From contig JAAPAO010000127.1 of NCBI GenBank assembly GCA_013115145.1, positions 1 to 64,000 of the forward strand: a DNA stretch of 64,000 bases. The letters are read 5' to 3'. This DNA comes from Perkinsus chesapeaki. Lineage: Eukaryota; Perkinsozoa; Perkinsida; Perkinsidae. The position numbers were made by a program, and so were the translations under genes. The first letter of the stretch is position 1, and every line of letters begins with the position of its first letter. Of the stretch, positions 10,976-59,492 are shown one piece after another. The notes under the pieces are model-generated. The model had not been told where the DNA came from. It did not search any database and saw only the letters and a program-made list of their open reading frames with translations.

Positions 10976-13900
10976 TTACTCGAATAAAACATTTGTAAGC
11001 TTGTTCTGGGCAGTACTGTAACGTTGGAGCTCCTGGAAGATGTTGTCTTCTCCACCGTATACTTCCATAACCTTTACAGTAAAAATACCGAGGCCAGGAA
11101 TCGAACCCGGGTGACTTACCTTCGATCTGTCGGTAACAACCATTCGGACAGGCACTGCCTTTGCATCACACTCGTCCTCGTGGATCACTCCGACCTTACG
11201 ACAGTCGCTCACAAACGTCGGGTTCTCATCCACGAGGTGCTGCCACAGCTGATTTACCGTCAAAGAAGGCTTTAAATCTGAATAATAAATGCGGGGTGCC
11301 GGGAACGAACCTATGCCTCACCACCCAGGTCATTTCCTGCTTGCTCGCTGTAACACTCTGTTGTCGGTACAACAGTCATTAAACCGTTGGCTACCTCTCT
11401 CACATGCTCATCGAAGAAACGAACCTGAGAAAATAACCGTAAATGAATGAGAAGTGTGGTATGACAACTTGAATATGAAATTTAAATGCGTTCTTGACAT
11501 CACCATTGTGGTGATGATTAATGCGAAACCATTAATCATATAAAAATGGTTAATTGCACTCTATGTGGTGTGGAGTGTTTCCTTCCCACATACAGGATGC
11601 ATAAATATTATATCACTATGGATTCGCGAATGATGGATCTCGCCGTCGGGGAGCTGTCGGCAATTAAGGTAGGACCCGTGAGAATATCTCCTAGAGATGA
11701 CATTAAACACACTTACACATGCACATCCATTTTCATTCTCAACAAGCCTTTTCGGGACCCCGACTGCTTGCATCGTCCATTCGTGCGTTGGTGGCTGTCC
11801 CCAATGCAAAGATGAGAACTTCTCGTGTGACGCCGTCACATGGGCCGCCGAATTGGCATCATCCAGTGCCGCCTGATGAGACCAGTCCACCCAGGTTCGA
11901 TCCCCAGCGAGAGCACTTACGAAGAACCTTTGGTGGCTTCCAAGCAACGAATGACCGGCTTCCGCACCGTTATTTAGGAATTCTTCTCGGGAAGCAGCTG
12001 GCGGTGTCCCTCCCGGAGTTAGTAAAATATCTTGCCTGAAGAGTATACAACTACACCCTTCCCGCAACCATGGCCCGCTCTTTCGAACAGCTCCAGTTTC
12101 ACAGGGTTGATTATAGGCGATCGAGTTTTGATCTTTCCGTAACCACAGCTGTCGGAAATTTCGGGAAAGTGTGTCGATTTTTTCGTATTAGGACCCAAAT
12201 AAATTAAAACTAGTAATTAAATTGATATAAACTTGATATTGACTGATGAAATTGATAACTTCATTAATATTTCTAATGATTTAGTGGAATTCAACATCTC
12301 AAGCACGCGATATTGTAAGAGTAGCAGTACTGGTTCGATGAGAATAGCTATAATTATTAAAATGTCCTCGCCAGGGATCGAACCCGTGCCCCTACCCTTC
12401 ATCAACATTGAACGTCTCTCGAATCGCTCTGGTCACTTGCGCCAAATTCCATCTGAAATCCATCTCCAGAGTTTCAACCGGATGCGGTCGTCCATGTGAC
12501 ACAATCGGTGTCTCCCTAAAAACCGAAAATTTCCGGCGACATTTCTCGCTTTTTCTTACTGTATCGAAGCCGTTGACGGATGAGCGTTATTGCTATCATC
12601 GGTGCCACGGGAGAACGGCCGGTCCCAACTGTCATGCGAGCATCTGGCGAAACAATGGAAATTTCTCGCCGAGCCAGCAGCCTTACATCCCATCAATGCT
12701 TGCTTCCTCCGCAGGGTCCACCATGTGAACAGTAACAACAACTTGATTAATAAGACTAGCGAAGCAGTCTGCAGCTGTAAGTATCTTTTCAGAGCAGATA
12801 ATGCACGGTTAACCTAAAGATTCCTCACCTTAAGTTTCGGGACCTCCGCAGAGCTCAAATCGGGCACGGCTGGGACAGGTGGATTCGGTCCGTCATACCA
12901 TTGGCAAATCAAAACCGGTGCCACACCATTGCAAACGGTGACCTGACAACATACCAAATCGATCAGCTGGGCGAGCGCTTTTTACAATCCAACTCTACCA
13001 GGTTAGTGAGCTCCTGAGGATCATCGAGTTTGACAGATGCAAGACCGGTGCGTCGCTCCGCCTCCTCGTAACACAAAATTGATCCACCGTCCTTTTCCGA
13101 GGGCACGCCTTCTGGCCAGAGCGAAAGAAACTGAATGCATATCCAAGGTTGAAGCAGGTAAGATACAAAATAACTCTACTTTGGCTAGAATTTCCTGATC
13201 AATCTCCTTCATATTCTGTAAGCCAGCAGCTTCCACCATCTCGCTGATCCTCGTTCCCAAGGCTGTCCGTAATGTCGGTGGCCCTCCAGCAGCCGTAACT
13301 CCTCCCAGGGAGATGTAATCGGCACCGAGCTCGACAACAGCGTGAGTTTTAGGGCAATAATATTTCATAATGACCAAAGTGCCTAATACCAAAAACGCAA
13401 TACAAAAATCGCTTCGCTCCGCTAACCTACCCTGATTTCTCTCGATAATATCTCCGAGTGGCTCAGGTTTGGCTTTTCCCAAATGCAGACGTCTGTGCAC
13501 CGCCAACGTGTGGCTCGGTACCGCTAGTAACTAAAAATGACCGCTGCGCCACGAAATTCATCCACCCGGTTCGTACTGTAATGTCTGCAACCTCCGGAGA
13601 TCGATCCCTTCCTCGCTCGCTTGTTCGAGTTCCGATGGAAGTTTTCATTCTGAAAATTCAACCATTATGGGCCGGAAAAAATAGGAAAATTCCCGGAAAA
13701 TTCCGGTCGTTTTTCCCCTCCCTGATTTATATAATATTTTCACATTGCAAAATCGTTTTTCATATCATCAGGGGAGACAATGCCGTCCAATCTCGGACGA
13801 AAATCAAAACAATGGCCTCGAATTTAGTTTCTAAAATTATACCCCGCCAAAATCTCAAAAAAATTCCCGTTATTTTTCCACGAAAAAGTCGTAAATTCGT

Positions 13901-16900
13901 TTTTTCCGGTGGTAATCTTACGCATCATTAAGCATCGAATCAAGTGTCCTTCCAGCACGAGATCGACTTCCGCGATGTAAATGATGATGTCCGTCGCTGC
14001 CCTGTCGGGTAGGTCCGTACATATTCCAATCTGCAGCGCCTGTGCTGTCCTCCTCAGCGCTCTCAGATACAACCATATCGCTCTTCAATTGGGACCAATC
14101 CATCTCAGTCATTCTGAAAGACGCAAGTTCGATTCCCGGCAGCGGAATTTTTAGGACTGTCCGTTACTTCTGACAATTTCGCGATAACTTGTCCAACAAA
14201 GATGCCAAGGTTAAACTAGAAAATTTCTCTCCAGAAACACAGCAAACACTTCCCTCCAAATTTTCCATCGACCAAATCCGCAATTTCAAGCAAATTTCCG
14301 AGCAGTTTTTCCCTGAAAATTTCCGAAATTTTGTCATCAAATACCCAAGCTCACCCATCAAGCCGTCTCCGTCTAAGATACGCCAAACCAATCTGTGTTG
14401 GGTCCAATTCGCTCGCCTTCTCATTAGTAGCCTTCAATGCATCAACAACCGACTCGAAAATTTGCGGTAACTACCAAAACAAAATCAACCTCACCCGAAA
14501 AGATTCCCCCGCCTACCTCAGCAGTTCTGAGCATCCGTATAGTCGTTCCAGCGTTATCCGCTATTGCAGGAATACCAAAGCCCTGCAGTCAAGAGTGCAA
14601 ACGTTTTAATGTGGGTAATTAATTCCGATTCTGAGATTTATTTCCCCAAGGTTACCTCTCCTCCCCTTAAATCCGCCGATGTCACTATCCTAACATTAAC
14701 GTGCATGGCCGCTTCTTGAAGCTCTCGCTTCCGATCGTCAACTCTCTTAGACTCGAGCTCTAAGCGATTCTTAACCTGACAAAATCGATCACGTGGTTAT
14801 CAATTCAACCTATTTCGTATCTTACCGTTTCATAAGACGGATTCGTTAATATCTTATCTGCCTCAGAAGCTTTCACATACACCAATAAATACCTAAAAAT
14901 GCCCTCCCCCGGGTTCGAACCCACGACCTTCCCCTTACGCGCTATATATTCTTTGCCTCGTCACTTCCGTCGGAGATCTCAAACCTTTTGTAAGATAATC
15001 AGATGGAACCACATCGGTGCCGCCGAAATTATCCTCAACCTGAAACGAAAAATGTAAAACGAAAAACGCTTCGCTCCGCGTGAACACTCACCGCCGCATA
15101 CTCCGAAACCTTCGTAACAGAATCGTCATCAAACCGGAACCAATCAGTTCCTGAAATCGATCGATTGGGCGCGCGCTTGTAACATCACCGATAAACTCAC
15201 CTTCTCCTTTTGGTCGAATAAAAGCATAATAGTGTCCCGAATTAACATCCCCGGAATGGACCTATTATGGTTATCCCCTGGTTATCCGAGGTTGAAGCGC
15301 GAATTCCAGGCTCAAAAAGATACGCCCGCGTAGAATCTTCACAGTGCGCAGCTTCCTCCACCTCCTTACCAGAACCGTGTGAAGAATATAGTCTCCTGTC
15401 CCGGGAAGCAAATTATCCAAATTCAAACGCGTTGGGAATTCAAACCGATCATGCCTGAGCAAAATCGATCACGTGATCGATTACGAACCCCCTTACAATT
15501 TAACCATGTCCATCCTGGCGAAATCAAAATTGAATCTTTTCAGTTGAATATTTAGAACCGGTGGGAACTTCGTAAACCGAATACCTTTCCTTGCCCTTTG
15601 CTTTCCATGACCTAGTAATCGAAAGGTCACGGGCTCAATTCCCAGTCGGGGCATTTTTATTACCTTCTGCTTCATAGGCATTCTCCCCCTCCAACATCTC
15701 CACTTGCGTAAAATCAAGTAGAGAATCTTGTAGAGTCTTCAGTCCAGCCACATTCAGCGATAAATCATAGAAAGGCTCAAGTCTGATAGGAGTAGAAAAA
15801 AAATCGAGTGAACCCGAAACCACAAAAGCTCGAGTGAGAATGAAGATGTCCAAGATTTTCCTGTCATTGTCGTGCATTCCCCAGCAAATATATTTGAAAT
15901 TTCCCGAATTTTTCGGAAAAAATGTCCAATTTTCCCGAAAATTTCCGGTAATTTTCCCTAGAACATCTCAGATTTCCTTAGTTTACTACCTTCTACTAGA
16001 GTAGCTTATATCCACACATTCAATAAAGTTCTCAAGCTCTCCTTCGAAGAGTTGCTGTATCGCACCGTCGACCGAAGTACCCTTCAACTTCTCCTCCAAC
16101 TTGTCACAGAGGAGTCTCTCCAACTCTTGAGCCTAGAAACAGCAGAATCTTTAAATATAAAGAATCCCATAATCATCAGGTATAATAAAAGTCTATTATA
16201 TCATATCATGAATAGTTACAGTGTATCTGTCAAACTACCAGTAAAACATCCCAGGTTCCATTCCCACGCAGAACACATCAAAATTATCATGTTCTCCTCC
16301 ATCAACTGGCCGATCTATTTTAATGTTTATTTGGTTGCCCTAAGACGTGCTGTTCTACAACCTTCCTCACCAAGAACCCCACGAAAGACCTCCTTCACGT
16401 AGTAATACGTACCATACAGCAAGACTATTATTAATTTCATACCGCTCCTCTCTTACGTCATGTTGAGTAAATGCATCCATCGAATCCCATCCAAATGCTC
16501 TTATCAAATCCTTACAAGTCACCGGGACATCAGAAGTCTGCAAGTCCAAAAAGACCTGACCACAACAACTCTCAAGAGATGGATGATATAACGACCATCG
16601 ATAATTTTCAACTGAGACACTGCATTGGATGCCTGGATCCCTCTACCGCCTGGTGCTCTCTCTGTGCGCTCGATCTTGGACTCTATATCAACACACTGTC
16701 CCCGATAGCGTCCAGCCTTGCGAACCAGAATCCAATCCGAAACTCGCTTAATCCTCAAGTACAATCGAAACGACAATGAGGGAATTGCGCACCTACCGAA
16801 CGCATGCTTCAACCTAAGATACTACCTTTTGCAGTGCAATCGGCAAGCTCAATCGACCTCCAGATGGACTCATACATGCCAATGAATCTTCCTCTCCAAT

Positions 16901-19441
16901 TTCCCCACCTTCCTCATCCTTAGCCAGACCTGAGACACCCCTCAAAAATCTTCACAGTGCGAAAGATTCCTACGTTCTCGCTCCGCTCTAGGATCAACCG
17001 AATAAACAATCTCCCGGAATCTTCCCAAATGATACAACGACTGTAGCAGTCCATTCAGGTAGCAAGTTGCCCCATGGTTTCGAAGACCAACGAAACTGAC
17101 GACAGAAAAATCAAAAAAATTTTTTCCCTGCAAAGCTACCCTGTTCCTCCTCGCTCCCTATCAGTCCCGTTGCCCAGAACTGTCTCGGCTTGCCTAGCGT
17201 AAGCTGATGCTCTCAAAACCTAACAAAACAGCAAGTAAAATAGGATATGTTTTCCAAACTCGGTCGCCTTTTCACGATTATTTCTACAGATTTACTTTTC
17301 CTCCGGTTTAACATGTCTCATTCAATCACAAGTTCAATTATCTTTACTCTCGACAACCGTGTAGTGTTGGAGGCCTCTCCTGGCTCCCGTCTCGGGAGAT
17401 CTTTATTATTTACCCCGAAAAACAACTTCCAAAAATTCCCACCAATTTTTACCGAATAATATAACTTTCCCAATCTTACTTGGAAACACATATCTCCCCA
17501 CTTTACGAAATTTCCCAAAAAATCGATAATTTTTCCCATGTTTTCCCCCCTATTACCAAATTCCCTTCCTCATCCAACCAGCCTTCTTTAGGATCCAATA
17601 CTTTATCGATTAACACCAGATCATGCCAACCACGATCAATCTCAGCCTTGCAGAAATTATGACTGTCAGATTTAACCTGATCATAAATCATTGAAATATT
17701 ACAAAAACCTATCTCTTCAGTCACCAAGATGACCCATGCCTTGCTGCTCGCCCAGTGAAATATCTCACTTCAAAAACTAGACATTAGAGCCCCCCAGATT
17801 TCCTCCCTATTCTCACGAAGCCCAGCCTCAGGCGGCTTTGCTATGAACAACCGCTGAGTGAATTCCAAAGTTGACCAAAGTCCACCAATACCAAACCGCT
17901 TCACCCATTTCGAGTCGTGACGGAATATACTACAAATTCACATTAATTTTTATATTGCTTCATATGATTTATCGAATACCATATCCAACTGCATCACAAG
18001 CCCATCAGAGATTTCTTGCGCGCCACGAAACTCTACTTCCACTTACAACAGATTTTCTGTAATCCTTCTGGTTGATAACAATAATCTGAAACTTAACACC
18101 AGCATAGACAAACCGAGGATCCATGCCTGACATCGAAAATTCACTGCGCCACGAAATTAAAAAACCACTACTACCTTCCTCCCTCTCCTGGCATTCTACA
18201 TAGGCAGCTAAATAGGTCGGCGCACGTGTGCGATTGCCGTGGGGGAAGACCAAAAGCTGAGGAGAAGTTGGTATGAGAATTCTCGTTAAAGCCACAGAGA
18301 TTTGGATCCGAATACATCCGAAGCGGTGAGTCACATTCCCCTATTGAAGAGATGTCCGACTTTTTAATGAGATTTCAAGTTGTATTTCTCCGGTATATGG
18401 TATTCTCCATTTACCATACGCATTGCAATATACTACATTTAATACGAAATGAACTATAAAAAACATATAGGATAAAATGTGCGGCACTTTCATCTACGAG
18501 CCTTCATAATTCCAAATAAGGTTCCACCTTGGAAGGGGTCCAGTTTCCTTATAATTTTCCATTCCCGATGACTTGAACCATAACTTCATCAGAAGATCTA
18601 ATGGGACAATTATACCATATAAAAGCACCCTCAAATTTCACAAAACGTGTATTCATGAATCGCTTCGCTCCGCCTGAATATTGTTACCTTAAAAGTAAAT
18701 GGTCCAGCTGTGAGGGAGGGTGAACGAATCTGCTCCATTGGTTGATATTTCGCAATATCCGCTATCTTAAACTCCAGCTCATTAGGGGCACATGGTGGAA
18801 TTGTAGCTGATTAAACAAAAGAGCGGTATGAGCTGCACCAACACACACACCCGACCAAGCTAAAGCATATACTAAAGCACCGCTCTGTAGACGTGCCGAG
18901 CTTTCCAGCAATAAAAGGACGAATACGATATTCAAAAACCTTCGCTTAAAAACGAGTCAATGCTGCTCCTCGGTGAATTAATTGAATATAGCATTTGGGC
19001 ATATTTCCATTTGGCTCGATTTACGTGGCCCCGAGAATTATGATATATTAATTATGACAACGAAGTAGTAGTAGAACAGAATAGGCACCAATTTTATCGA
19101 CACAGCTACCAAAAATGCCATAATTATTAACTGCGAGAATTTTTAAGAAATTTCCAGAAAGAAAGTTTTTATTCAATAAACCTCGGTGGTATTATCAAAT
19201 AGTAGGACACTACTGTTTATCATTATCACTATATTATACCACTGTTATTTATATTATTACTATAGAAGACAATATTGAATATCTCCCTTATATTATTACC
19301 AGCATTATGATCCACTTCTCCTCTTTGTTGTAGATCCTTCCGACTGCTACTACCATCACTAGTTCGTGATGAGCCCGGTGATGAATCTCCCTTATGCCCT
19401 CGAGTAGATGACGGAGATTTCCCGCCACTCAAAATCGACAT
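10976..19441 (-). CDS. USP7-type ubiquitin carboxyl-terminal hydrolase (many exons)
   Basis: Cysteine deubiquitinase with USP7-like layout. From the 5' end: Ser-rich start at 19441 (MSILSGGKSP); MATH/TRAF-like domain (NELEFKIADIAKYQP near 18770, LLVFPHGNRTRAP near 18270, GWHDLVLIDKVLDP near 17620); catalytic Cys box FVGLRNHGATCYLNGLLQSL with Cys at 17064-17062; DLIRAFGWDSMDAFTQHD near 16480; AQELERLLCDKLEEKLKG near 16110; FPPVLNIQLKRFNFD near 15540; HDRFEFPTRLNL near 15440; catalytic His in VNSGHYYAFIRPKGE near 15230; Asp in DWFRFDDDSV near 15120; YLLVYVKASEADKI near 14870; then a coiled segment and probable ubiquitin-like domains. The last exon would end at 10976 (TAA). Homology fixes many splice sites between 18.8 and 14.7 kb. 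Below 14.4 kb the exon chain is unsure, and a separate gene there cannot be excluded. Confidence 0.85.
11072..11119 (-). repeat. 48-nt intron with sense tRNA T-arm-like core
   Basis: Minus strand: GTAAGT donor, then CACCCGGGTTCGATTCCTGG, an acceptor-like CCTCGGTA, TTTTT, and an AAAG acceptor. The order T-arm, acceptor-like strand, T-run is that of the 3' end of a tRNA gene with its Pol III terminator. Confidence 0.85.
11278..11321 (-). repeat. 44-nt intron with degenerate sense T-arm-like core
   Basis: Minus strand: GTGAGG donor, CATAGGTTCGTTCCCGG, CACCCCGCATTTATTATTCAG. The downstream exon reads in frame as DLKPSLTVNQLWQHLVDE, which supports the acceptor. Confidence 0.75.
11873..11920 (-). 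repeat. 48-nt intron with antisense T-arm-like core
   Basis: Minus strand: GTAAGTGCTCTCGC, then TGGGGATCGAACCTGGG, ending CTCATCAG. The T-arm reads on the opposite strand to the gene. Both flanks keep one open frame when the intron is removed. Confidence 0.7.
12348..12395 (-). repeat. 48-nt intron with sense T-arm-like core
   Basis: Minus strand: GTAGGGGCACGGGTTCGATC, then CCTGGCGAGGACATTTT and an AATTATAG acceptor. Same layout and same length as the intron at 11072-11119. Confidence 0.75.
13131..13179 (-). repeat. 49-nt intron made of the GTATCTTAC / AAGATAC element (antisense)
   Basis: Minus strand: GTAGAGTTATTTTGTATCTT, ACCTGCTTCAACCTTGG, and a CATTCAG acceptor. It corresponds to the element repeated at 5590-5895, in the opposite orientation to the gene. 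Confidence 0.7.
13383..13430 (-). repeat. 48-nt intron with GCGGAGCGAAGCG core
   Basis: Minus strand: GTAGGTTAGCGGAGCGAAGC, GATTTTTG..., GGTATTAG acceptor. It shares the 13-mer GCGGAGCGAAGCG followed by ATT and a T-run with introns at 15040, 18630, 19480 and 19949. Confidence 0.85.
13531..13576 (-). repeat. Short intron with AATTTCGTGGCGCAG motif
   Basis: Minus strand: the motif AATTTCGTGGCGCAG is followed by CGGTCATTTTTAG. The donor is either GTACGA at 13576 (46 nt) or GTGGAT at 13565 (35 nt). The motif recurs at 18147, 18020, 22389 and 10943. Confidence 0.6.
14114..14167 (-). repeat. 54-nt intron with antisense T-arm-like core and poly-A/T run
   Basis: On the plus strand the core reads CGCAAGTTCGATTCCCGG, CAGCGGAA, TTTTT, which is a complete T-arm plus acceptor-like strand plus T-run. 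The gene is on the minus strand, where the intron starts GTAACGG and ends TTTCAG. The element is therefore inserted backwards. Confidence 0.75.
14776..14825 (-). repeat. 50-nt composite intron: GTAAGATAC element plus CACGTGATCGATTTTG
   Basis: Minus strand: donor GTAAGATACGAAATAGGTTG supplied by the hairpin-element tail, then AATTGATAACCACGTGATCG and ATTTTGTCAG. It joins the exon ending ILTNPSYET to VKNRLELESKR of the USP7-type gene. The second half matches the intron at 15455-15495. Confidence 0.85.
14893..14938 (-). repeat. 46-nt intron with sense T-arm-like core
   Basis: Minus strand: GTAAGGGGAAGGTCGTGG, GTTCGAACCCGGGGGAGGG, CATTTTTAG. It lies directly before the conserved USP7 exon YLLVYVKASEA, so the acceptor is supported by homology. 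Confidence 0.85.
15040..15091 (-). repeat. 52-nt intron with GCGGAGCGAAGCG core
   Basis: Minus strand: GTGAGTGTTCACGCGGAGCG, AAGCGTTTTTCG..., TTCGTTTCAG. It separates DWFRFDDDSVTKVSEYAA from VEDNFGG, both matching the USP7 catalytic core, so both ends are supported. Confidence 0.9.
15262..15369 (-). repeat. 108-nt double-length intron carrying GCGCACTGTGAAGATT motif
   Basis: It splits the USP7 motif ...ILHTVL / VHSGDVNSGHYYAF, so both ends are homology-supported. At about twice the usual intron length it contains the GCGCACTGTGAAGATT motif (15334-15349) and, further down, a segment resembling part of the GTATCTT element (GGTTGAAGCGCG). This looks like one element inside or beside another. 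Confidence 0.8.
15455..15495 (-). repeat. 41-nt intron with CACGTGATCGATTTTG
   Basis: Minus strand: GTAAGGGGGTTCGTAATCG, ATCACGTGATCGATTTTG, CTCAG. Splicing gives DMVKLHDRFEF, aligned with the USP7 stretch before the His box. The palindrome ATCGATCACGTGATCGAT lies in the middle. Confidence 0.85.
15612..15663 (-). repeat. 52-nt intron with antisense T-arm-like core
   Basis: On the plus strand the core reads GTCACGGGCTCAATTCCCAG, TCGGGGCA, TTTTT. The gene is on the minus strand (GTAATA...TACTAG). Splicing joins YEAEG to HGKQRARKG, exactly as in the USP7 family alignment, so this backwards copy is spliced out of a conserved exon. Confidence 0.9.
18127..18174 (-). repeat. 48-nt intron with AATTTCGTGGCGCAG motif
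   Basis: Minus strand: GTAGTAGTGGTTTTTTAATT, TCGTGGCGCAGTGAATTTTC, GATGTCAG. It lies inside the MATH-domain region of the USP7-type gene; a related copy lies at 18020-18032. Confidence 0.8.
18630..18687 (-). repeat. 58-nt intron with GCGGAGCGAAGCG core
   Basis: Minus strand: GTAACAATATTCAGGCGGAG, CGAAGCGATTCATG..., AAATTTGAG. It follows the exon SPSLTAGPFTFK of the MATH domain. Confidence 0.75.
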
Positions 19442-19479
19442 ACTTCAAAAATGATCACAACAACAACTACTGTCATACA

Positions 19480-19518
19480 CTAATTTGCATAACAAAAATC
19501 GCTTCGCTCCGCTGTCAC
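19480..19518 (-). repeat. 39-nt probable 5' leader intron with GCGGAGCGAAGCG core
   Basis: Minus strand: GTGACAGCGGAGCGAAGCG, ATTTTTGTTATGC, AAATTAG, ending 39 nt upstream of the USP7-type start codon. If real, this is an intron in the 5' leader. Confidence 0.6.
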
Positions 19519-19539
19519 GCTAAATACACAAACTAGCCC

Positions 19540-19820
19540 CTGCCGAGAATCGAACCCGGCAGGCCAAGAAGATCTGATTTTTCCCAGGAAAATAGCGATA
19601 CCAAATTTCCTCTAGATTCACCATAAATACAAACTTGTTTAAAAACTATTACTGAGGGATTTGTTTGATTTAATTGATCTCTCCAAGAATCGAACCCATG
19701 CCCTCTCCCTCAACAAAATGCCAGTCACACACAGCAATGAAACGTAGTCGAGCACCCAAGTGCCACGCTAGCAAGGAACTGTTAAATTAAACCGCCTCTC
19801 CCGGGGATCGAACCTCCGCG
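19540..19820 (-). repeat. Cluster of three T-arm-like sequences between two genes
   Basis: Three T-arm-like cores read on the minus strand: GCCGGGTTCGATTCTCGGC near 19545-19563, CATGGGTTCGATTCTTGG near 19682-19700, and GGAGGTTCGATCCCCGGG near 19797-19816. None has a matching 5' half of a tRNA. The last one overlaps the final codons of the ATP-grasp gene, which stops at 19787. Confidence 0.75.
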
Positions 19821-22800: not shown

Positions 22801-23504
22801 GGGCATTTTCCCAGCAAATATTTACCATTTCCTTACCCCGTGGTCCTCAAGCACGATGCTGGTTGCACTCTTCTCTTTGCAAATCTCAACTGCCGCCGCC
22901 GAGTTCACGTCAAACGTGTAGCCAAAAACAGAAGTCTGCCGAACCGGCGAGCTTTCTGAAAAAAATCTGAAAAATTTCCGCAAAATATTTTACTCGTTTT
23001 AAACTGTAGGATCCAGTCCATCGACATCCTGGTCATAATAAGATTCTCGTCATTGGCAATCTCACCGAGTAGTGATATAAACCTTGCTCGTCTGGGCATT
23101 AAAAAGTGATGCTTCAAAGAGCTTGATATCATCGGTGGTATTTTACTAGGGATAACCATTACAACAGAAACAAGTGCAGGAGACTTAACTGTACGATTAG
23201 AAGGAAATACGGTATAAAAAATTAACCTAATAATTTTGTTCGGCCAATAATATATTTTAGAAGTTTGAGTTTTCAAAGAGTACCCTGCGAACTTTTCCAG
23301 GATGGTCTATTTCGATGAGTAAATTATCGATTGCCGGACAAATGCTGAAACGCTGACGAGTGATACATGTTGCCAGGATTCCGATTGACCTGAATAATCC
23401 TCAAACAAACCAACAGCTTTTTTTTCTGCTAGTACGCGGAAAACACTCCGACTAAAAGATAAAAAAACAAATACCGTACCCGTGGTTCGAACCCGAGTCT
23501 TCAC
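19787..23504 (-). CDS. ATP-grasp domain protein (multi-exon)
   Basis: The exons together read as an ATP-grasp ligase fold, enzymes that join a carboxylate to an amine or thiol through an acylphosphate. Order on the minus strand: pre-ATP part (DVNSAAAVEICKEK near 22910, SATSIVLEDHG); central PCCSVAKDYIPKGQSAVEE with LVLKPLKG near 22240; glycine loop GTGGADVMVAHNVREAEAAI near 21940; VSPFLNILNEYRVVC then YSKQRQSVKGDGVKTI near 21180, typical of the family; EIIPLQWKHNLGLGAKAKLV near 20560; AATNAIGIDFCSVDVVELT near 20060; LEVNCGVMMDNFLSQ near 19930, whose LE/VN junction spans an intron. The stop is at 19787. The 5' end is unresolved, with the first probable exons near 23.3-23.5 kb. Substrate unknown; it is closest in style to RimK or glutathione/peptide ligases. 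Confidence 0.78.
19949..19994 (-). repeat. 46-nt intron with GCGGAGCGAAGCG core
   Basis: Minus strand: GTAGTAGGCGGAGCGAAGCG, ATTCATG..., TTTTGTATAG. It splits the ATP-grasp motif KILE / VNCGVMM in phase 0, so both ends are confirmed by homology. Confidence 0.9.
22191..22229 (-). repeat. GGCGGAAATGTGGTATTA element at an ATP-grasp donor site
   Basis: Minus strand: the donor GTAATATAG after LVLKPLKG at 22229 leads within 17 nt into TTTGGCGGAAATGTGGTATT. The same element occurs at 45003, 45128 and 45292. The intron is longer than usual and its acceptor is not fixed. Confidence 0.7.
22378..22415 (-). repeat. ~38-nt intron with TTTTGTGGCGCAGTGA
   Basis: Minus strand: GTATCAATAATTTTGTGGCG, CAGTGAGAATTTG, TTTAG, directly before the ATP-grasp exon VPNVPHTVFLNPCC. 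It is a variant of the AATTTCGTGGCGCAG family. Confidence 0.65.
23452..23504 (-). repeat. 53-nt intron with sense T-arm-like core
   Basis: Minus strand: GTGAAGACTCGGGTTCGAAC, CACGGGTACGGTA, TTTGTTTTTTT..., TTTTAG. The T-arm, acceptor-like strand and T-run are in the canonical order. The flanking exons are less certain than in the USP7-type gene. Confidence 0.65.
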
Positions 23505-27228: not shown

Positions 27229-29558
27229 GTTTTGAACTGTAAGATGTAAGACTAACAGCCTGAACCTTACTGGTACAGGACCGCCTTAATAAGACGGCCT
27301 TATGACAAAGCCCTTGCTGACGAGACTGCTTCAGAGAAGTGCTAGTGATTTGCTAGTTGAGACAACACTACACTGGATGAAATAGGGAGGGAATTCCTAG
27401 AAATAAGCCAATAATCACTCGATAGAAATGCTTCGACTTCATAGTCTTCGCTTAGCTCCTATCTTCTTACTACATATAATATTATACAAATATCTACTAG
27501 GTCTTCGTGACGAAGCGGCGGAGCTCGTTCAGCTGCTATTTTGCTCGTTGTTAGTTCGTCATCACACGCGTAGGGCTTTGGAGGTGCGAGCGAGTGATCA
27601 AATCGCGCGGAAACGATTTAGAGAAGAAGACGTGGGTTCGACTCCCACAGGCCGCATTTTCCGTCAAGTAATGTTTTTGCGCTTCCACTCGACACACGGG
27701 GTAGCTTTCAAAAAATTACAAAAAATAATTTTCTTGGCATCCCCAGAGGGAGGGGAGTTTTTTCGTATACAGGTCATCAGCTAGTTCGCTCTGGTTAACG
27801 GGAAATAACTCGTACGCACGCACGCACGGCGAAATGATCCATTTCCAGATAATAAGCCCCGCTCGCTTCGCTCGCTCCGCAATTGTAATGTATGACATGT
27901 TCCAATCACAAGGCATCAACTTCGAATAGGCCTGGTTGTCCAAACCCTGGCGGCTAGGGACCCGAAGTTCGGGACCCGAGCGTGTGAAATGTGTAGGTGC
28001 ATCTAGGGTCGTTCAATAGACCGATCTTCAAATTCAGGATCAATTCCAGAACTGCATTTTACATGGCAAATGCGATGTTGGAATCGATTCTGAATCCCAG
28101 AATTGGTTCAATAAACACTGGGACTGATACGCGGAGCTTCGTCCAGAATCGGGACAGCCGGATAATATGAAGTCGAAACTGGCTGAACTATGGCACTGTC
28201 CGACAGTAACTGTCGGGTGTTAAATTGGGTAGACCCATTCAAAGAGTCGAGATCAGCCGTCTTCAAGGCGCTACAACTATGACAGTTAACTTATTTAAGA
28301 TCGACTATAGGCCCGGTCGATATAATAAACCAAACAGATGGATTATAGAAGGATCCAATTGCTTATACACTAGTATATACCTTACGAAGTATACAGCATT
28401 AGCTAGGCTTAGATATCATATGTAACACAATGGGGACAAGCTTTGTGTTAAGCTTATACTACACGACTGAACTCATCTATTGATAGTATCAATTTGATAC
28501 CACTTGAGAGTTGAATTCTGTGGCGGGACCTTCAGGTCATTAACGCTTGATACTAAGATCCAGTCCGGAGCATGCGATCCAGACTGGACCAGTCCCACGA
28601 CTGCCGTGGCACGACAAAAGAGTTTGGTGTAACTGCATTGGTTTACCAGTTCAGCTTGACCTTAGCGAAGTTCTGCCAAGGCCAATTCACGTCGTCTGCT
28701 TGATGCATGACATCTCATCAACTGAGTGCCGTGACGGTATATAGCCGACCGATTATCGGATGATTCGAACAGTTCTAAGTCCGAATAGTTCGGATGAATC
28801 GAACGTATAATCTCAACCATTGTATATAACACAAGGAAAGCCATTGGACGGATAACGTGGGACAAAGGAAAAAGCCTTAGCTGGCAACAATGATTGATTC
28901 TCTACAGTTCTGGAACACTCCAAGCAGTTATTGGACTGTTCGTGGGACCCATTCAAGCACAGGGGTACTGACACCCCGAACTACCCACATATCACACCAT
29001 TGGCAAATCAGTACAACGCAACACGTAGACAATTCAATACCGGAACAAAGAAGTCTGAACTCTGATGCTTGAAGTCCAATTACAGGACAATTTCAGACGC
29101 TCTCGACCGGAGCCTCATACAGAATGTCATAATTCATCATCAACAACAAACTGGTTACGCCGTGGCACCAAAGCTTGAGACTTGAGATTCTATACGGAAC
29201 TTTACTAACAAAAAGTCTGTTGCTTACATAATGGCGGCAGGACGGCAACAGTCGTGACTCAAGGTGACCTATCTTAGTCTAAGACTTGTACTCTAACTTC
29301 AGCACTGAACTTAGAGTATAAGTCTGTGATTGTCAGCATAATCCATATAAGTCACTGGAAATTACTGGTCTGCAATTATCACGACTGAAGAACTGGCATC
29401 ACAGTGTGATGATTATACAATATAGAGCAGGCGGGAACTGTTCAAAAATGTGCTCAAGTAAAGAGTCTCAACACTGTTAGAGCAACAATGACTGCAAGTA
29501 GCCAGCGTTGCGCAAGGCATGCATGCATGCATGCCAGCTAAGCTAAGCTGGCCCAGCT
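27229..29558. other. Long non-coding stretch with isolated T-arm and CGCTTCGCTC sequences
   Basis: No supported gene. A perfect T-arm (GTGGGTTCGACTCCCAC, 27632-27648) followed by AGGCCGCA and TTTT lies at 27632-27660, and a CGCTCGCTTCGCTCGCTCCGC string lies at about 27860-27880, resembling two of the intron families. From about 28720 the sequence resembles the stretch from 34540 that precedes member 4, so the array has shared spacer DNA. (GCAT)n at 29518-29533. Confidence 0.55.
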
Positions 29559-30840: not shown

Positions 30841-30849
30841 CTGTATACA

Positions 30850-31700: not shown

Positions 31701-31703
31701 GCA

Positions 31704-43498: not shown

Positions 43499-44300
43499 CT
43501 ACCACCAACTCCGCAAACTAACTTTTCCAACACATTTCAATGAGTAGTTAATGGATTTACACTTGCTAACATTTCCCATCCTACCCCTCCTGATACCAAT
43601 TCCACAATTTTCTAAAAACATATCTATTCGCTGCTTGATGACAAAACGGTCATTGTAATTATTGTGCGCGCAAGAAACCATGGATCTCATATTTCCTAGT
43701 AAATTCAAAGAACAACAATGTACAGGCTCTCTCAAGTAGATATCCAAATTCTTTCGAGTGCGCATCGCCGCCGCCCTCCACCTACCCCAGCGGTATCCAG
43801 TAAGAACTGCGATACCATAGGCCAGTCCGAACAACCAACAGAAGCCCACTGCGACACATGCCTGGTTGAAACTGTGCCACGGTAACGTCTGAGTTTTCAA
43901 AGATGCTTTGTATGTCTCAGGTGCTTCGCCTAGAAAATAAAAATGCCCCCACCGAGGATCGAACCTGCGTCCTCCTTACCATCAATGAACTCAGGGCTCT
44001 GCAGCGACCTGGCAACCTTCTTTGCCTCTTCCTTCTGCTGCTTTTCTGCATCCTTCATCCACTCTGAACGAAATTAGCAGTTTTCTATATATATCAAAAT
44101 CCTTCCAAAAATGAGCGTTAAAACATGCGCTCAACTTCATATTTTTTCTTACCCGAAGGTGTGCCGGATTGCATCCGAGATATCTTCCTTTCAGGCTCCC
44201 CCCTATCATCCGTAATCAATCCCTCCTCCTTGCTCTTCTCGAAAGATACGCTCTTGCTCACTGAAAAATCTTCGCAGTGCGCAACCGTAAAGATTCTCAT
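43499..44300 (-). CDS. Hypothetical protein with a transmembrane pair
   Basis: Minus-strand exons: a charged upstream part near 44240-44130; EWMKDAEKQQKEEAKKVARS and SLQSPEFID near 44060-43980; then, after the intron at 43930-43979, GEAPETYKASLKTQTLPWHS and a hydrophobic part (ACVAVGFCWLFGLAYGIAVL) near 43840-43760. The splice gives one continuous frame. No family recognised; the ends are approximate. Confidence 0.5.
43930..43979 (-). repeat. 50-nt intron with sense T-arm-like core
   Basis: Minus strand: GTAAGGAGGACGCAGGTTCG, ATCCTCGGTGGGGGCA, TTTTT, ATTTTCTAG. It is one of the clearest members: T-arm, GGGGGCA as acceptor-like strand, five Ts, then the acceptor AG. Confidence 0.88.
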
Positions 44301-49551: not shown

Positions 49552-49559
49552 CAACCTGC

Positions 49560-52556: not shown

Positions 52557-53315
52557 TTACCTTATAAAAGGTTCAAACGGCGACTTCGACTGGACGGTCC
52601 CGTTGTACAGCGAGAAGCTGCGAGAGAAAGACTTGGATAAGCTGAAGTAGTTAACGTTCAGAGTTCCATACATGTGCCACTTGAGACCATCTCCAGAATC
52701 AGCCGCAATCTCCACACTTACCCTAGTAGTCGACTTATCATCACCTTTACCAGTGGTAACCTCTTCGTCAATCTCAATTAGACTGAACATACGCATAGGT
52801 ACATAATCTACCAACTCCTTGTAGTGAACCTTGCAGCTGCCTAGAGTTGAGAAGGGCAAACTTATATCTTTCTTGCCCGACTGCTTTATGTCGATGTCTC
52901 CCTCAACATAAAAGTCCAATTCTTTCCCTCCATAAATGTCATCTCCACCTTCCTCCTTCACGGGTGGAATCGTAAATCGAACGGTGATGTCCATGCCCTC
53001 ATCGGCCAAGGTCTGTTTGAGCACAGTACCCCCAAGTCCTTCCACACGAACCCTGAAACTGCCTGTCTCATTAGGGACAGTGGCTCCGCAGGCAAGTTCA
53101 AGATCGGTGTAGGCCTTGTTGGTGAGGTCGGCAGATTTGAGACGGTAACCACCAAGTAGAACTTCGGAGTTACCCTTAACAAAGAAGCAGTTTTTATTGG
53201 GAATCTTCTCACCTTCGTAGCAGTTCTTAGGACTGATAGCCAGATAGTCTATAACCTGTTGCGAAAGGGCGACAACACACACCAACGCCAGAATGCCAAT
53301 GATTGAGAGGATCAT
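52557..53315 (-). CDS. Secreted protein with N-terminal signal peptide, lineage-specific
   Basis: 252 residues in one exon, ATG at 53315. It starts with a classic signal peptide (MILSIIGILALVCVVALSQQ) and continues as a beta-rich secreted domain with a few Cys (NCYEGEKIPNKNCF, LELACG, LGSCKVHYKEL). There is no second membrane segment, so it is probably secreted or lumenal. No named family is recognised. The ORF is intact and the flanks lack repeats, so it looks functional. Confidence 0.78.
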   Translation of the reverse strand: MILSIIGILALVCVVALSQQVIDYLAISPKNCYEGEKIPNKNCFFVKGNSEVLLGGYRLKSADLTNKAYTDLELACGATVPNETGSFRVRVEGLGGTVLKQTLADEGMDITVRFTIPPVKEEGGDDIYGGKELDFYVEGDIDIKQSGKKDISLPFSTLGSCKVHYKELVDYVPMRMFSLIEIDEEVTTGKGDDKSTTRVSVEIAADSGDGLKWHMYGTLNVNYFSLSKSFSRSFSLYNGTVQSKSPFEPFIR

Positions 53316-54790
53316 TTGGTGGGAAAGAGCTGAAGGATTACCTCAGATGAGCAACTTATCGTTGACTCAGCGACGCTGACCCAATGAAGAAGCAGGGGTC
53401 TACCACGGGAGAAAATTACGACTAGAACTTTACGACGGAAGGAGATTCGACGATTGTCGACTCCTTGCACTACTAGTAGCACTCAAGAGGGTAACGATTT
53501 GATCAGCTTAATTAGCTCAAGCTGCGGGGAATACGTGCAGCCCGGTTTGGCTAAAAAACGAACAACCGTATTAATAGGGATACAAAACGACATCATGTCA
53601 GTTCTTGGTAGACGGGCTAAATGGTGCAACCTCGCAGATGTACCGAAGATCACTTCTATGGAGAAGCAGTAAGCTTGCCCTCACAAGTAGTTCGAGAATT
53701 TATATGGTCACCGTCACATTCCTCGTCGCCACTGAAGCCGAGCTTACCGAGCGCTTTCTTATTTTGTAACAGAAACAGCGAGTGTACAGACTCTCTACTA
53801 GAGAATCACCTGCATACGCAAGTTGCAGCTTCCGCTTCACATTGCCTGCATTCCCGAAGCAGGTGCACTTCTGCCAACATTAGAAGATTCTAAGGCTTAG
53901 AATCTAAGCGTTCCGCGGACTTAATTTCGGACGTTCTTTCGTTGGTCGACATTAATGCATCCCTGAATCCGGGACCATGATCTAAAGGCTTCTGAAAAGT
54001 CGCAACGGTAGAGTTCCCTATTAGTGATCCGTTATCTGGGGTGCGGCCGAGCTTCAGGTTCGAGTATTCCACAGGTGGTAATGTGGCATTCCGAATGCCT
54101 ACACACTCGGAATGAGGTACTCCCGCGTTTGATGGGATGTAGATACGCGTGCAGCTCGTGGCGCGCACCGCGGGTGTAAAAGAAGTGGATAATGTCTATT
54201 TATTAGCATAGGCTATGTCACTCTATTTGCACTAGTTTGAGATTAGCTGTGCTAGGATTTCAGTATAACTTAGTCAGTGTAGGTAGCTGAGAATTGTTAT
54301 TTTTCCACTGTCCTTTGAAGTTGCACAGTTTGCTATTAGCTATGTGATCTACTCTGTTGCACGCATACGTTAGGCTTTTCTGCGCCTTGGGTTGGAAATT
54401 CTTTCTGGCACTCAACAAGGGTGGTTCTTGCATTACTCGTGATACGCAATGCGCACTGCGCATCCACGATGCAAGCAGTGCTTAAGCATCGTGGTCAAAA
54501 TCATCCTGCGGGAGTTCCTTAATCCGACGCGCGTGTTCCTGCCGGCACGACGCGGTGGGTAGGTGTTTTCCAGCTCTGAGCAGTATGGAGGAAAGCACCG
54601 AAATAGCAGAATTAAGAAAAGTATAGCTATTGAGCTGATAGTACACTCTACTGAGTAGACTCTACTCCGAGTAGACTACTTGTATAAGTTAATCTTATCA
54701 GAAAGAAAGGTTCCCTGATTATTTCCCTAAGAAACTTACTAATATTTTCGGGGATTCTTCCTTGATTTTCCCCTGTCCCACTGTAATATC
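53316..54790. other. Intergenic stretch with decayed repeat and hairpin
   Basis: No gene supported. Around 53900-54100 the minus strand reads phrases (STVATFQKPLDHGPGFRDA) similar to those at 33750-33960. At 54464-54494 a long inverted repeat CCACGATGC...GCATCGTGG with an inner AAGC/GCTT pair can fold into a hairpin. Confidence 0.5.
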
Positions 54791-55078
54791 TTGCGTAATG
54801 ACTTGGTGGAGGGATTAGCCTGGGACATATCTAGGCATTGGTCAGCTTGTAGAGAGTATTTGTTCAGAATAAAGCAAGTAGACAGCCCTTTCTGTAAGCT
54901 ATGCAGTTTGGATGATAATAGTAATGCTGTAGATGGTATTGATCACATACTCCTTTTCAATTGCCGCAAGAATGAGAACATTCGAATTACTTGTTCCGGA
55001 AGTTCTACAATTGTGGCAGATAGAGACGACTTTGTTAGTAGGAAGTTCCTACTAACAAAGTTCCTACTAGGAACGTAG
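54791..55078 (+). pseudogene. Fragment of a non-LTR retrotransposon (C-terminal zinc-knuckle region)
   Basis: The reading RHWSACREYLFRIKQVDSPF followed by CKLC...GIDHILLFNC matches the C-terminal region after the reverse transcriptase of many LINE elements, where a C-x2-C...H-x4-5-C knuckle follows a YL-x-RI stretch. Nothing of the reverse transcriptase or endonuclease is present upstream, so it is a fragment. Its end runs into a perfect palindrome at 55029-55061. Confidence 0.65.
55029..55074 (+). other. Two overlapping perfect palindromes with one-base centres
   Basis: ACTTTGTTAGTAGGAA-G-TTCCTACTAACAAAGT (16-bp arms, 55029-55061), directly overlapped by GTTCCTA-C-TAGGAAC (55060-55074). Confidence 0.9.
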
Positions 55079-57663
55079 TTGATGTCGCGCGGTTCGTTGC
55101 TTTAGCGAGGGGCTTATGATAAATATTCTCCTGCCTTCTCCATTCCGTCGAATGGAGTTCAGGTGATACCACAGCACTGCTTATCAACGTAGCAAAGTCT
55201 GTGCTGCGGAGGGCAGCGCAGGACTCGGAGGGGCACCCCCTCCGAGGGAGTCAGATCTGATGATCGGATTCTGATCGTGAGGTCAACATACAACTAGGAG
55301 ATCTCTGTCTTTTTCAGTAAATGCGCGAGTTATGACCAGGTCATTATGACCTACTGCCAGTAGGCTACTGGTACACCTTCATCACCGAGGAACATCACTT
55401 CACCCCAGCCGCTGCGACTATCTTATGCACTAGCGGCCGTGTACGATCAGGCTTTGCGACAGGATCAGCAGCTCCCGGATCGTGCCGTGACAGTTCCTTC
55501 ATCAGGCGTGGTTGGCTGATGTGGAGGTCAAGTTGACGTCCCATGCAATCATGCACATATAAGAATATCGAACTTCCAAACACAGTTTGCCTGTGTAAAT
55601 GCATATCCTGTTTACGGTCCGAATCAGCTATTTTCAAAACGCATTTCTTCAAAGGACCGATTCTAGCGGCCCAGCAGCCTGAAAAGACCATGGCTTGCTG
55701 TGCGACTCTGCACCGAGCAACTCTTGGCAGATATAATATATTTTTGATGATCAGTTTCTGATCGGATATATCCAATCATGCTATGGATCCCATCATGGAG
55801 TTCCGGTCCGGAACTCCAGCATTTCCGGAACTTCCGGAAATTCTATTCCCAATGGACATTTCCTATACCACTTCTTATTGAGGAGTCCTTAGGTAATACC
55901 TAATGAGTGAGAGCACAGCTTCGGAATTGTTCGGCACTGACCATCCTAGGTCTTGCTAAACAGTTGCCAAGTAAGTAGGTTTGCTCAATCAAATACCAAA
56001 CCTCACGCGGATGGCATATCCCACCTCTTTTCATGAGTGTGTCTACGACCTCATCTAGTCTGGGCATGCAGCTGCCAAGTAGGATAAACACGACAGCGAA
56101 TACCTGTGATATTCACCGATATTATATCATCGATGAAGACATAATCTTCATTCATGATTCATCAAAATGTGTGTGCGTTGAACAGACGGCGCCACGACCA
56201 AAAGTGGCATGGTTTCCTCCGGGAAACCAAGTATTTCCGGTACACATGTAAAAAAATCGGAGCAGGCTATCCTGCACCTTCAAGGCGTATCAAAGACTTC
56301 GGAAACACGGGTGTTGTTACGGATACACAATCTCCGCGCTATCACATCCGGGTCCTAAACCTTAGGACTTAAGGGTTCCGCAGGAGCGACGAGTGGCCAC
56401 TTTCAGCTTGCCCAACGTGTCTCAGCCACCGCCAATACCGAATAAGAATACTTACTCAATAAGTACTGTCTCTGCTTTTGCTTCCGCAAAACGCTTCTCA
56501 GCTGACAGCCACAAGTCATATATATCTACTCTCTGTTACACGCGCTCTTACACAGACTTATCCGGATTTCAGAACTTACCGAACATACAGTCCTCCAAAT
56601 AAACTTAGAATATTTTGAAATAATATCATTACTTCACAACGGGAACGAGTTTAGTGCTCATCTTCGGATATGTTATGCATATGGTAGTTCAGACCCACTT
56701 GTCAAAATATTGTACGGGACTCACGCATAGGCAGAAGCGGTATTTATTAAGTATTCTTATTCGGTTCACGGCGTCGTCGACCCACCCAATGCACAGCCTA
56801 GTAGGCTAAATCTATCGCCGATAATGCAGCCCAAAAAATAAAGTGTCGTTCTCATCGTTCCGACGCATATCCATCAAAGACTTTCTAGCGAATTATTGGG
56901 GACTCACCAATCATTCGAGTAGTGCTCTCCAATTGACTGTCCATTATGGACAGCTCCATTCACTCAAAAACAGTTGGTTCGAGTAAGTGATTTTGCGAGC
57001 TGCTCAGTGATTGTGTCATTCACTCTTATTTACTCTTATAACACAAAATAAGCGCTTGGTAGAAAGGGATTTCGGTAATACCGAATCGGCGGTATATTAG
57101 AAAGTAAAGCCTTGATCATTACGAATTGATCCGTGCTTAGCTGTTGGCTGAGGAAACCAACCAGGTGATGCATACCTAATAACGAACAACCAGTTGCCGT
57201 ATAATACAACTTGCCTGAAGCTCAAGCACGCCATGGAGTAGTCAAGCCTAATGTAATCCTATCCTAATGAGCTCTCACTGTAGTATTACAAATTTATAAA
57301 CATATTGTAATCATAGTAACATAAGCTAATCTATATACTATTATAACAGTACTTACACTATATAGTAATACTATAATATATAATAAAAATATATATATCT
57401 ACATCACAATTTATACTCTCTTATAGTTTTTAGATTCATTATTGATGCATACTTGTTAGTAACAAGTCACAAGTTGTTACTTTATAATCTATATACTATT
57501 TTGATACTTATACTATATATCAATAATAATACATAATACAATATAATAATAATAGATCTATATTACGATTTATATTACTATATAATTTTTAGAATCATTA
57601 TTGATCCACACTGGTTATGTACTCCATTACTGGATTTACCCCACTGCCTGGTTCACCCTCCCC
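55079..57663. other. Long non-coding stretch with palindromes and AT-rich duplicated segment
   Basis: No supported gene. It holds a GC-rich hairpin CTCGGAGGGG-CACC...CTCCGAG (55224-55246), two adjacent one-base-centre palindromes with 10-bp arms (GGAGTTCCGG-T-CCGGAACTCC at 55797-55817; ATTTCCGGAA-C-TTCCGGAAAT at 55821-55841), and a diverged AT-rich direct duplication at about 57337-57460 and 57487-57620. The minus-strand ORF at 55395-55775 has no family features. Confidence 0.6.
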
Positions 57664-59492
57664 TTACAATCCAGTCTTATATTTATAACACTGCCACACA
57701 CTCCATCCACTGACCAGACTAATACCCAACAGCGCCATAGCTGACAAACGATAATTACAATTGGAGCCCCTCAAATTGAAGAACACTTACACAGAAATCT
57801 AGACTTCCTCGATTTGATCCAATATGGAGCCCGAACTGCAGCCAAGAGAGATAATCCGGATACTATCATCATCGATGAGCAGAAGAGGCCTTCGCCCAGA
57901 TACTGACCGCGAAACTGCGGCAAATTGAAAAAAATAGTTTTAAAGAAAATAGGGAAAAAGTTTGGGGCTACTTACTCCTTTCAAAATGTACTCTGTATTT
58001 CCATTCCTATCTCGTCCGGAGAATATCATCCCATTAAGCAGGTTATAGAAAATACCAGAAGTTGATATCATCTGAACGAGCCATCGGACGACCAAGGTTC
58101 GAACCCCGGGGCTTCCTACTTCTATCAAAAGTGCTGCAATAATGCATACCACATGCCACCTTCTGGCTGCATATAGTCCATAAATAATGAGGCCGATTGC
58201 TGCTAGGATGAGACACCATACTTTCACGGCGTGCTGAGAATAACTAGTACTCAGGTGAGATGCGACAAATATCCCAACAGACGCAACTGTGAAATTTGGA
58301 TGACGAGAAACAAAAGGAAGCCATCGAAGGACATTAAACAGACCCGTTCTCGATAGATCTCTGCGACGAATCTCCTATGTACGTGATTGGATAATTCACC
58401 TCAACAATTCTGCCAAAAGTTTTACTGAAACGCGTCACGCTATCGATTTATTTTCTCGGACTGTAAGGCCTAGCTGAACTCGGCTAGTTCTCTCCCATAG
58501 AAAGGAAGGCAAGTGTGAGTTCCTGGCAGAGTCCGTTACAGATACCCTCATTCCCTTACTACCATAACTCTCTCCTGTTTGGTAGTGTACGCTTCTACAT
58601 GCTTCCCAGTTTTGATATTCATCCAATCGAGTATCTCACCAACTGGTGGTTCTAACTTGGTCTGATGGTAGATCTCCGATGAAGCTATCTGATATTCTCT
58701 TAGGGACTTCTTGTACTTCAATTTTGACCCTTCATGGAGGTGAACCTATGAGCCAAATTCAGGCTAAGCAATCGGTTCTCCTGAGCTGGCTTTGAATGTT
58801 CCATTAAGGTACACTGCTCGAAAAAAGTATAAAAATGAACGTGCGTGAAAACTACGAGTGTTTCAGCCCCTAGCCAAACGTATCAAATTGAAGAGCAGAG
58901 ATCTAATGCCAGCCTCTTCCATAGTCGGGCCTCCAATTGACAGTTCCTACAACCGAGCCTTCTCCATATACTACCAAATGTGGCACTGACTTGAAGCCGT
59001 GCAGCCTCTGCAAGTCCCTATTATGAAAGGCATTCATTTCCACAAAGAACACTGGCTCTTCATCTTCGTCTGACTCTCCTACCGCTCCCGCCTGAGAAAT
59101 CGGTCAAGTGTCCGTCATTCTTCCCGCCGAAAAAAATCTTTTTAAAAGACTCCGCAACCAGTTTTACATTGGAAGCGTTGTTCACTTCAAAACTATTTCC
59201 TCTTCATGGCCCGGACTCGTTAGGAGAATAAAATTTATGTTAAGCTCATATGGGCTCTTCCCATCCCCGTAATAGATCCTCGATGGATAAACCCCCGAGC
59301 CCCGAGGTTGGGGAATCCACTGTTATTACCATATAATGTGACATGGCCGCCTTATCGAATGCCTCACCAATAGGACCACAGACATCACATACCGCTCCCG
59401 GAGCGGTAATGAGGACAAATGCATGGTATGGACGAGGGTCCTCGAGAAGGAGCCTCCTGTATTCTTCAGTGCTAAGGGATATCTTGGCCGAC
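57664..59492 (-). CDS. Oligosaccharyltransferase OST3/OST6-like subunit (5' end unresolved)
   Basis: Thioredoxin-like subunit of the ER N-glycosylation complex (TUSC3/MAGT1/Ost3 family). The exon from 59492 down contains ISLSTEEYRRLLLEDPRPYH, AFVLITAPGAV and the redox motif CDVC (CDVCGPIGEAFDKAA). A later exon near 59060-58910 has FFVEMNAFHNRDLQRLHGFK and SVPHLVVYGEG. The membrane part follows: NVLRWLPFVSRHPNFTVASV, VWCLILAAIGLIIYGLY, LLIE/MISTSGIFYNLLNGM, NTEYILKG, FRGQYLGEGLFCSSMMIVSG and finally MALLGISLVSGWSVWQCYKY, stop at 57664. Introns at 57741-57790, 57916-57975 and 58072-58119 are clear. The exon with the signal peptide was not found; it should lie upstream of 59492. Confidence 0.83.
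58072..58119 (-). repeat. 48-nt intron with T-arm-like core in the OST3/6-like gene
   Basis: Minus strand: GTAGGAAGCCCCGGGGTTCG, AACCTTGGTCGTCC, GATGGCTCGTTCAG. It joins LLIE to MISTSGIFYN at a position inside a conserved membrane helix of the OST3 family, so it is a verified intron in an unrelated gene. Confidence 0.88.

Follow-up and report, generated by a model that had tools for sequence, protein, structure and literature searches.

In short interspersed elements (SINEs) derived from transfer RNA (tRNA), the tRNA part forms the 5′ promoter head with an A box and a B box. Here, we describe a family of short introns from the alveolate Perkinsus chesapeaki which appear to consist of the 3′ part of a tRNA gene, and which came to light in the first 64,000 nucleotides (nt) of contig JAAPAO010000127.1 (assembly GCA_013115145.1, forward strand), called the window in the following. 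They share with tRNA-derived SINEs the tRNA sequence, signals of the RNA polymerase III (Pol III) type and a high copy number. In contrast to SINEs, mostly the 3′ part alone is present here and fills the entire intron.

Comparable introns are known as introners. The sections of the introner survey considered here describe short repeated introns in unrelated genes, some with a splice site of their own; the known families are often tied to DNA transposons, and families without target-site duplication or terminal inverted repeat are included (PMC9860276). The introns of P. chesapeaki are likewise short, repeated and spread over unrelated genes. They differ from the families in those sections in their body, which is a tRNA 3′ part, and in the absence of junction repeats here; the main text of the survey uses neither the word tRNA nor the word SINE. 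For Amoebophrya, the part of the report drawn on here describes mostly non-canonical introns with inverted repeats and direct repeats of 3–5 nt at their boundaries (PMC7789003). Both cases have an alveolate host and many repeated introns, for which a transposable-element-like spread was proposed in Amoebophrya. In contrast, the ten introns of the window are GT-AG introns, and the T-arm introns are without junction repeats. A further parallel are tRNA halves and fragments, since the source, in the portion used here, reports tRNA cleavage most often in the anticodon loop (PMC4390854) and several of our copies appear to begin at base 35. Those fragments are RNA, whereas the copies described here are genomic and carry a precursor T-run instead of CCA. 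In the open literature, judged by titles and abstract openings, no description of introns from tRNA 3′ ends was found, and the family is best filed as a tRNA-based introner.

T-arm introns in the window

The original prediction named ten introns of 44–54 nt with a T-arm core, and this observation is real and stands more firmly than could be seen at the time. All ten segments lie on the minus strand and have GT...AG ends. The strict core GGTTCGA(A/T)(C/T)C is found in seven of them (starts 11072, 11873, 12348, 14893, 23452, 43930 and 58072), and near versions are found in the other three. Most were said to continue into a T-run; at least three Ts past the position of the discriminator base are indeed present in eight of the ten (exceptions 11873 and 58072).

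The orientation of the T-arm is mixed. It runs with the gene in 11072..11119 (48 nt, GTAAGTCACCCGGGTTCGATTCCTGGCCTCGGTATTTTTACTGTAAAG; phase 0), 11278..11321 (44 nt, core GGTTCGTTCC with A58 changed), 12348..12395 (48 nt), 14893..14938 (46 nt, in which GTAAGGGGAAGGTC equals tRNA positions 35–48), 23452..23504 (53 nt) and 43930..43979 (50 nt, 3′ end GGGGGCATTTTTATTTTCTAG). It runs against the gene in 11873..11920 (48 nt), 14114..14167 (54 nt, core AGTTCGATTC) and 15612..15663 (52 nt, core GGCTCAATTC, with CTAGTAATCGAAAGGTC on the plus strand). The segment 58072..58119 has the palindromic core GGTTCGAACC. The segments at 12348, 23452 and 43930 are also matched by the version of the assembly-wide pattern with a downstream acceptor described below.

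An exon-intron model was trained on the window and 20 arbitrarily chosen 10-kb regions without use of the motif. Its 603 introns have a modal length of 44 nt, the donor GTRRG and the acceptor YAG, and 21 of them contain a T-arm-like string on either strand. The model arrives at exactly the same boundaries for five of the ten segments (11072, 11278, 14893, 15612 and 43930) and covers a sixth by a longer intron, 14114–14240. The segments at 11873, 12348, 23452 and 58072 lie outside predicted genes and are called introns by their GT-AG ends alone. Apart from 15612 and 14893, for which the protein is informative, the call rests on these ends, joined by the model for 11072, 11278 and 43930.

Further T-arm elements of the window are candidate introns only. 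Three on the minus strand (19547..19814, starts 19547, 19687 and 19805) are pattern or weight-matrix matches, and one on the plus strand (27635..27659) has A73, a T-run and a fully paired T-stem.

Host genes and protein continuity

The introns 14893..14938 and 15612..15663 are hosted by a gene for a USP7-like ubiquitin protease (13918..17539, minus strand, 750 amino acids as predicted, ends uncertain). Its product matches PF00443 at residues 93–544 (E 8.8e-41) and has USP7 as closest PDB entry (E 1.3e-61). The nearest relatives are mostly unnamed proteins with 42–44% identity, the top named ones being from dinoflagellates, and homologues match further upstream, to about 18259. Intron 15612–15663 interrupts the USP7 catalytic domain behind residue 398, and the protein alignment runs ungapped over the site. 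Intron 14893–14938 is located after residue 538, within the PF00443 match; a homologue with HSAYMLVY for YSAYLLVY is in agreement, as judged by eye. The third case is an adenylate kinase 6 gene (L042), where the alignment is ungapped over a 67-nt sense T-arm intron (2391–2457). Judged by the continuity of the encoded protein, these three copies, two USP7-like and one in adenylate kinase 6, are introns.

The introns at 11072 and 11278 lie in a predicted gene piece (10445..11539, minus strand), the C-terminal part of which resembles the C-terminus of the USP7-like homologues (best E between 9e-7 and 0.003 for four homologues). The piece alone has no Pfam match. By this resemblance it probably belongs to the same USP7-like gene, which may hold as many as seven of the ten introns of the window. 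The four or more unrelated genes claimed at first are therefore better put at about four.

Relatives of intron 14893–14938 were found on C499 (90% over 40 nt) and C99 (87% over 45 nt). Four other candidates for paralogous introns, two on C23 and one each on C43 and C90, were rejected, all being tRNA-Arg(CCT) genes. A second copy of the USP7 region, which could have served as an empty site, was not found.

The tRNA geometry across the assembly

In the window, the strict core was counted 13 times, with palindromes scored on both strands, compared to 0.37 expected, and this count was reached by none of 100 shuffles. In the assembly (35.4 Mb, with the reversed pattern as control) 1105+1137 matches face 132+147 reversed ones; here, the palindromic form is scored on both strands and tRNA genes are included. 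The sequence GGTTCGANYC followed, after a gap of 4–12 nt, by GGYATTT yields 147+151 = 298 matches, tRNA genes included, compared to 1+0 for the reversed pattern. Among 100 matches listed for this combination, all have a gap of 8, which is the tRNA distance, though 4–12 was allowed. Eight of these are ends of known tRNA-Arg genes, seven with GGTTCGAATCCTGCATCGGGTA as in tRNA-Arg(ACG) and one from tRNA-Arg(CCT); among the remaining 92, none was recognised as a tRNA gene, as judged against a partial tRNA set. If the acceptor TNYAG is required within a further 12 nt, 51+73 matches face 0+0, with a few elements scored twice (two of 100 listed rows were one element read to a second AG and were dropped). 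A chance origin of the motif is rejected by the shuffles, the reversed-pattern counts and the 298 against 1 of the geometry.

The tRNA numbering extends to the 5′ side. GTAA is found 6–20 nt upstream of the core in 181+159 cases, compared to 22+32. After nine of 100 listed rows with tRNA-Thr gene sequence had been dropped, 28 of the 91 others had a gap of 13, which in a tRNA separates anticodon base 35 from G52; any other gap between 6 and 20 was seen at most nine times. The consensus of these rows, GTAA[GT]CGAAAGGTC, corresponds in form to the tRNA stretch from the anticodon loop over the 3′ strand of its stem to the variable loop. With at most one mismatch, CGAAAGGTC-N3-GGTTCGANYC matches 106+117 = 223 times, compared to 1+0. 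Among 14 exact copies of GTAATCGAAAGGTC, the two preceding bases vary (10 different pairs), so that in those copies the element seems to start at base 35, together with the 5′ splice site. Overall, the numbering runs from 44 to 73, followed by the T-run, and holds over up to about 39 positions with no indel. The sequence supports a large family of introns that hold a tRNA gene's 3′ part, running from base 35 in some copies over C48, the T-loop and a 7-nt acceptor strand to A73 and the T-run.

The coincidence of the element's 5′ end with the 5′ splice site in the GTAATCGAAAGGTC copies is also what a single founding intron multiplied by reverse splicing could leave behind. This mechanism cannot yield antisense copies, which exist, and the copies are too divergent for it, so that we give it hardly any credence.

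Enrichment in introns

A weight matrix built from 18 seed elements was used to scan 264 kb, the window and a 200-kb sample. At 14 bits or more, 34 matches were obtained, compared to 0 in the reversed sequence. Seven of these were left aside, four as tRNA genes and three as full-length tRNA-like copies. The other 27 elements are distributed over predicted introns (15), predicted coding sequence (4) and other places (8). Introns, predicted without the motif, make up 14.0% of the bases, and the presence of 15 of 27 elements in them corresponds to P=5e-7; one of the 15 placements (L029) is doubtful, as the predicted donor lies inside the core. Of these 15, nine are inserted in sense and six in antisense. 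Beyond the window, in the sampled 200 kb, 9 of 13 elements are located in predicted introns, and extrapolation of these 13 elements in 200 kb to the whole genome leads to roughly 2,300 copies. As in introners, similar sequences are present as introns in many unrelated genes, with a likeness limited to the core, the geometry and a weak consensus.

Conservation of the core and its two sides

The core hardly varies, and the flanking positions are highly variable. Compared to the strict 298 matches, relaxing GGY gives 665, relaxing TTT gives 489 and allowing any one mismatch gives 874 (controls 3, 6 and 3). Computed from these counts under assumed independence, each GGY position is retained in about 76% and each T in about 85% of copies, and the joint mismatch odds of the other ten specified positions are about 0.47. 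Of 56 local elements, 46 have A at position 73, 53 have G at 57 and 54 have G at 52; G53, T55, C56 and C61 are invariant in this sample, which was found via the core.

TFIIIC binds the B box, and extra-TFIIIC sites without an A box exist. The motif could therefore be maintained by selection as a B box, the introns being mere carriers with drifting flanks, a rival which we regard as unlikely but take seriously. The nearly invariant core next to less well kept GGY and TTT positions would fit, the conserved letters are those of the B-box consensus, both orientations are present and the T-stem is unpaired. Half-decayed copies are also scarce, weight-matrix scores of 6–12 giving 11 matches compared to 10 in the control. 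A bare B box, however, explains neither why A73 and the T-run follow at a constant distance in the 100 listed copies nor why CGAAAGGTC lies upstream.

Associations between positions bear on the history of the copies. For these tests and for the T-stem pairing given below, four of 54 elements were dropped as tRNA genes and three full-length tRNA-like copies were retained. Mutual information in the 56 elements reveals linkage within positions 39–51 (block z 7.7, 3.7 and 2.9) and within 62–72 (z 1.9 to 5.3). Across the core, z is 0.6 for the 5′ and 3′ strands of the T-stem, 0.9 for upstream and acceptor blocks and -0.8 for upstream block and T-stem 3′ strand. After addition of 38 elements, picked by eye with GTAA or CGAAAGGTC required on the left, the association of the whole left with the whole right side in 94 elements was reached by 39 of 300 shuffles. 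The loop bases 59–60 are linked to the right side (4 of 300 shuffles) and not to the left (178 of 300). In 35 tRNA sequences the association is strong throughout, a value inflated by near-identical copies. That the sequences to the left and right of the TTCGA core are not clearly associated suggests chimeras joined in the T-loop, with a joint that would fall within 52–58, inside GGTTCGA; the sample is small and this is not proof of exchange.

Possible descent from tRNA genes

On balance we lean slightly towards an introner-like family of spliceosomal introns made of tRNA 3′ parts, including an origin by reverse transcription with template switch. Several results weigh against it. Protein continuity is established for three introns only, and splicing is predicted from sequence and gene model. 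T-stem pairs are no commoner than in shuffled sequence, in 50 elements and again in 94; in comparison, at every one of four T-stem positions the bases pair in 34–35 of the 35 distinct tRNA sequences. The Rfam tRNA covariance model matched none of 20 tested elements at E up to 10. The acceptor positions 66–69 are nearly random and hence no source tRNA was identified, and one full-length source sequence, guessed so that its anticodon stem pairs, matched only one already known copy, with two mismatches. An A box at tRNA distance is found in 7 of 47 elements, tRNA genes and full-length tRNA-like copies excluded, compared to a background of 9.6%. Among the exact copies of CGAAAGGTC listed on C1–C157, only 7 of 21 have GTAA at base 35, so that this 5′ end is not universal. 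One pair of blocks, the T-stem 5′ strand and the acceptor, is weakly linked across the core (z 2.1). Finally, same-register repeats at the splice junctions average 2.5 in the 14 T-arm introns predicted, of which the GC-AG one in L031 is doubtful, compared to 2.54 in 608 others.

The claim that the family descends from tRNA 3′ ends is thus upheld for the tRNA-3′ geometry. Plain descent is not, given the pairing, the Rfam result, the variation of the flanks and the lack of a clear link between the sides.

Neither Rfam nor ARAGORN finds a tRNA gene in the window, and nested or split tRNA genes there were rejected on the same grounds. In 98 copies, 46 of 4753 pairs differ by 0–1 mismatch over positions 62–71, with about 14 expected from shuffled columns. 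The typical number of source tRNAs is some 45, and 46 close pairs are too few for this, which disfavours recent exact copying of ordinary tRNA genes; a single young clone family is disfavoured by the same pair count.

The introns might also be 5′-truncated copies of a tRNA-derived SINE family. This would account for a fixed 3′ end with T-run next to variable 5′ ends. Longer tRNA-like sequences with an A-box-like stretch occur in L067, L030 and L032. An A box with at most one mismatch is present in 14 of 54 elements; seven of these are tRNA genes or full-length tRNA-like copies, and no clear surplus over the background is left among the others. The absence of junction repeats and of a clear clone family among the copies makes this explanation quite improbable in our view; no search was made for a SINE body, a partner long interspersed element or a tail.

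The junction repeats also bear on an ordinary DNA-transposon introner whose likeness to a tRNA end arose by chance. Both insertion orientations are seen and other short intron repeat families are present alongside, as such an element would allow. Target-site duplications at the splice junctions, as in DNA-transposon introners, are absent here, and the tRNA numbering fits over up to about 39 positions with no indel, which leaves this explanation very improbable.

Proposed origin of the introns

For the preferred reading, a family made of tRNA 3′ parts, the body of the intron would comprise the anticodon loop (base 35) or variable loop, the T-arm, the 3′ acceptor strand, A73 and the Pol III T-run. 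Such a piece would be almost an intron on its own. Inserted in sense, a GT from the anticodon or variable loop would become the 5′ splice site (for example, an anticodon N-G-T followed by A37 and A38 gives GTAA), and the T-run would supply the pyrimidine tract ahead of a nearby AG. By eye, sense copies have their donor GT at these loops (GTAATCG in L099, GTAGGTC in L088, GTAAGTC in L060) and their acceptor AG past the T-run. After antisense insertion, the acceptor strand or the reversed T-run would provide the donor GTA, as is seen by eye at 15612 and probably in L097, L098 and L100. In antisense copies, GATTAC precedes the AG, and its role as a branch site is a guess.

Methylated A58 (m1A58) is a known obstacle or stop for reverse transcriptase. 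The pieces may have arisen when reverse transcriptase, copying tRNA or tRNA-like transcripts, switched template in the T-loop, a part in which tRNAs have GGTTCGA in common and the methylated A58 would impede the enzyme. They would then have inserted into genes and survived because they can be spliced. We infer a Pol III transcript as source solely from the T-run. The full sequence of events, in which reverse transcriptase stalls in the T-loop, jumps via GGTTCGA and leaves a chimeric tRNA piece that inserts as a ready-made intron, is put forward as a tentative and rather doubtful proposal. A template switch during reverse transcription is the preferred reading and selection on the B box its main rival; the two are not exclusive and both may hold.

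Neighbouring repeats, genes and tRNA loci

Other repeats are located in introns nearby. A second intron repeat family (window 13390–13433 and 15045–15079; L090, L091, L095) carries GCGGAGCGAAGCG and then a T-run close to the 5′ splice site, with 94–100% identity over 30–39 nt between different contigs. A third (window 12945–12988; L093, L094) has the form TGTAAAAAGCGCTCGCCCA..TGATCGATTTGGTA, with 89–94% identity over 35–44 nt. A family of 65–69 nt (L033, L039 and the window) occurs in both orientations and shows arms like TTGACCT..AGGTCAA as well as AACCTAAAGATTC; window 13139–13172 and L092 may be related to it. The string CGCGCCACGAAATT is repeated at window 10951–10964 and in other sample regions, and three of four sample occurrences of the form GCGCCACGAAAT are located within predicted introns.

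Nine open reading frames (ORFs) of the window are without Pfam match, and the window ORF at 4109 has 64% identity to a Perkinsus olseni protein. In L036 (586–3244), one predicted gene unites a bromodomain with a CRT-like transporter and probably represents two neighbours fused by the model. Among the 35 distinct tRNA sequences, tRNA-Ile(TAT) is represented by eight differing ones, some with changed T-stems, a wide range for one isoacceptor. At G000:C440:2972-6623, tRNA-Arg(TCT) genes are clustered on both strands together with one tRNA-Arg(CCG).

Conclusions

The origin of new introns is a long-standing question. If the introns of P. chesapeaki are indeed a family made of tRNA 3′ parts, they would link intron gain to Pol III transcripts, and half of a tRNA would hold most of what an intron needs.

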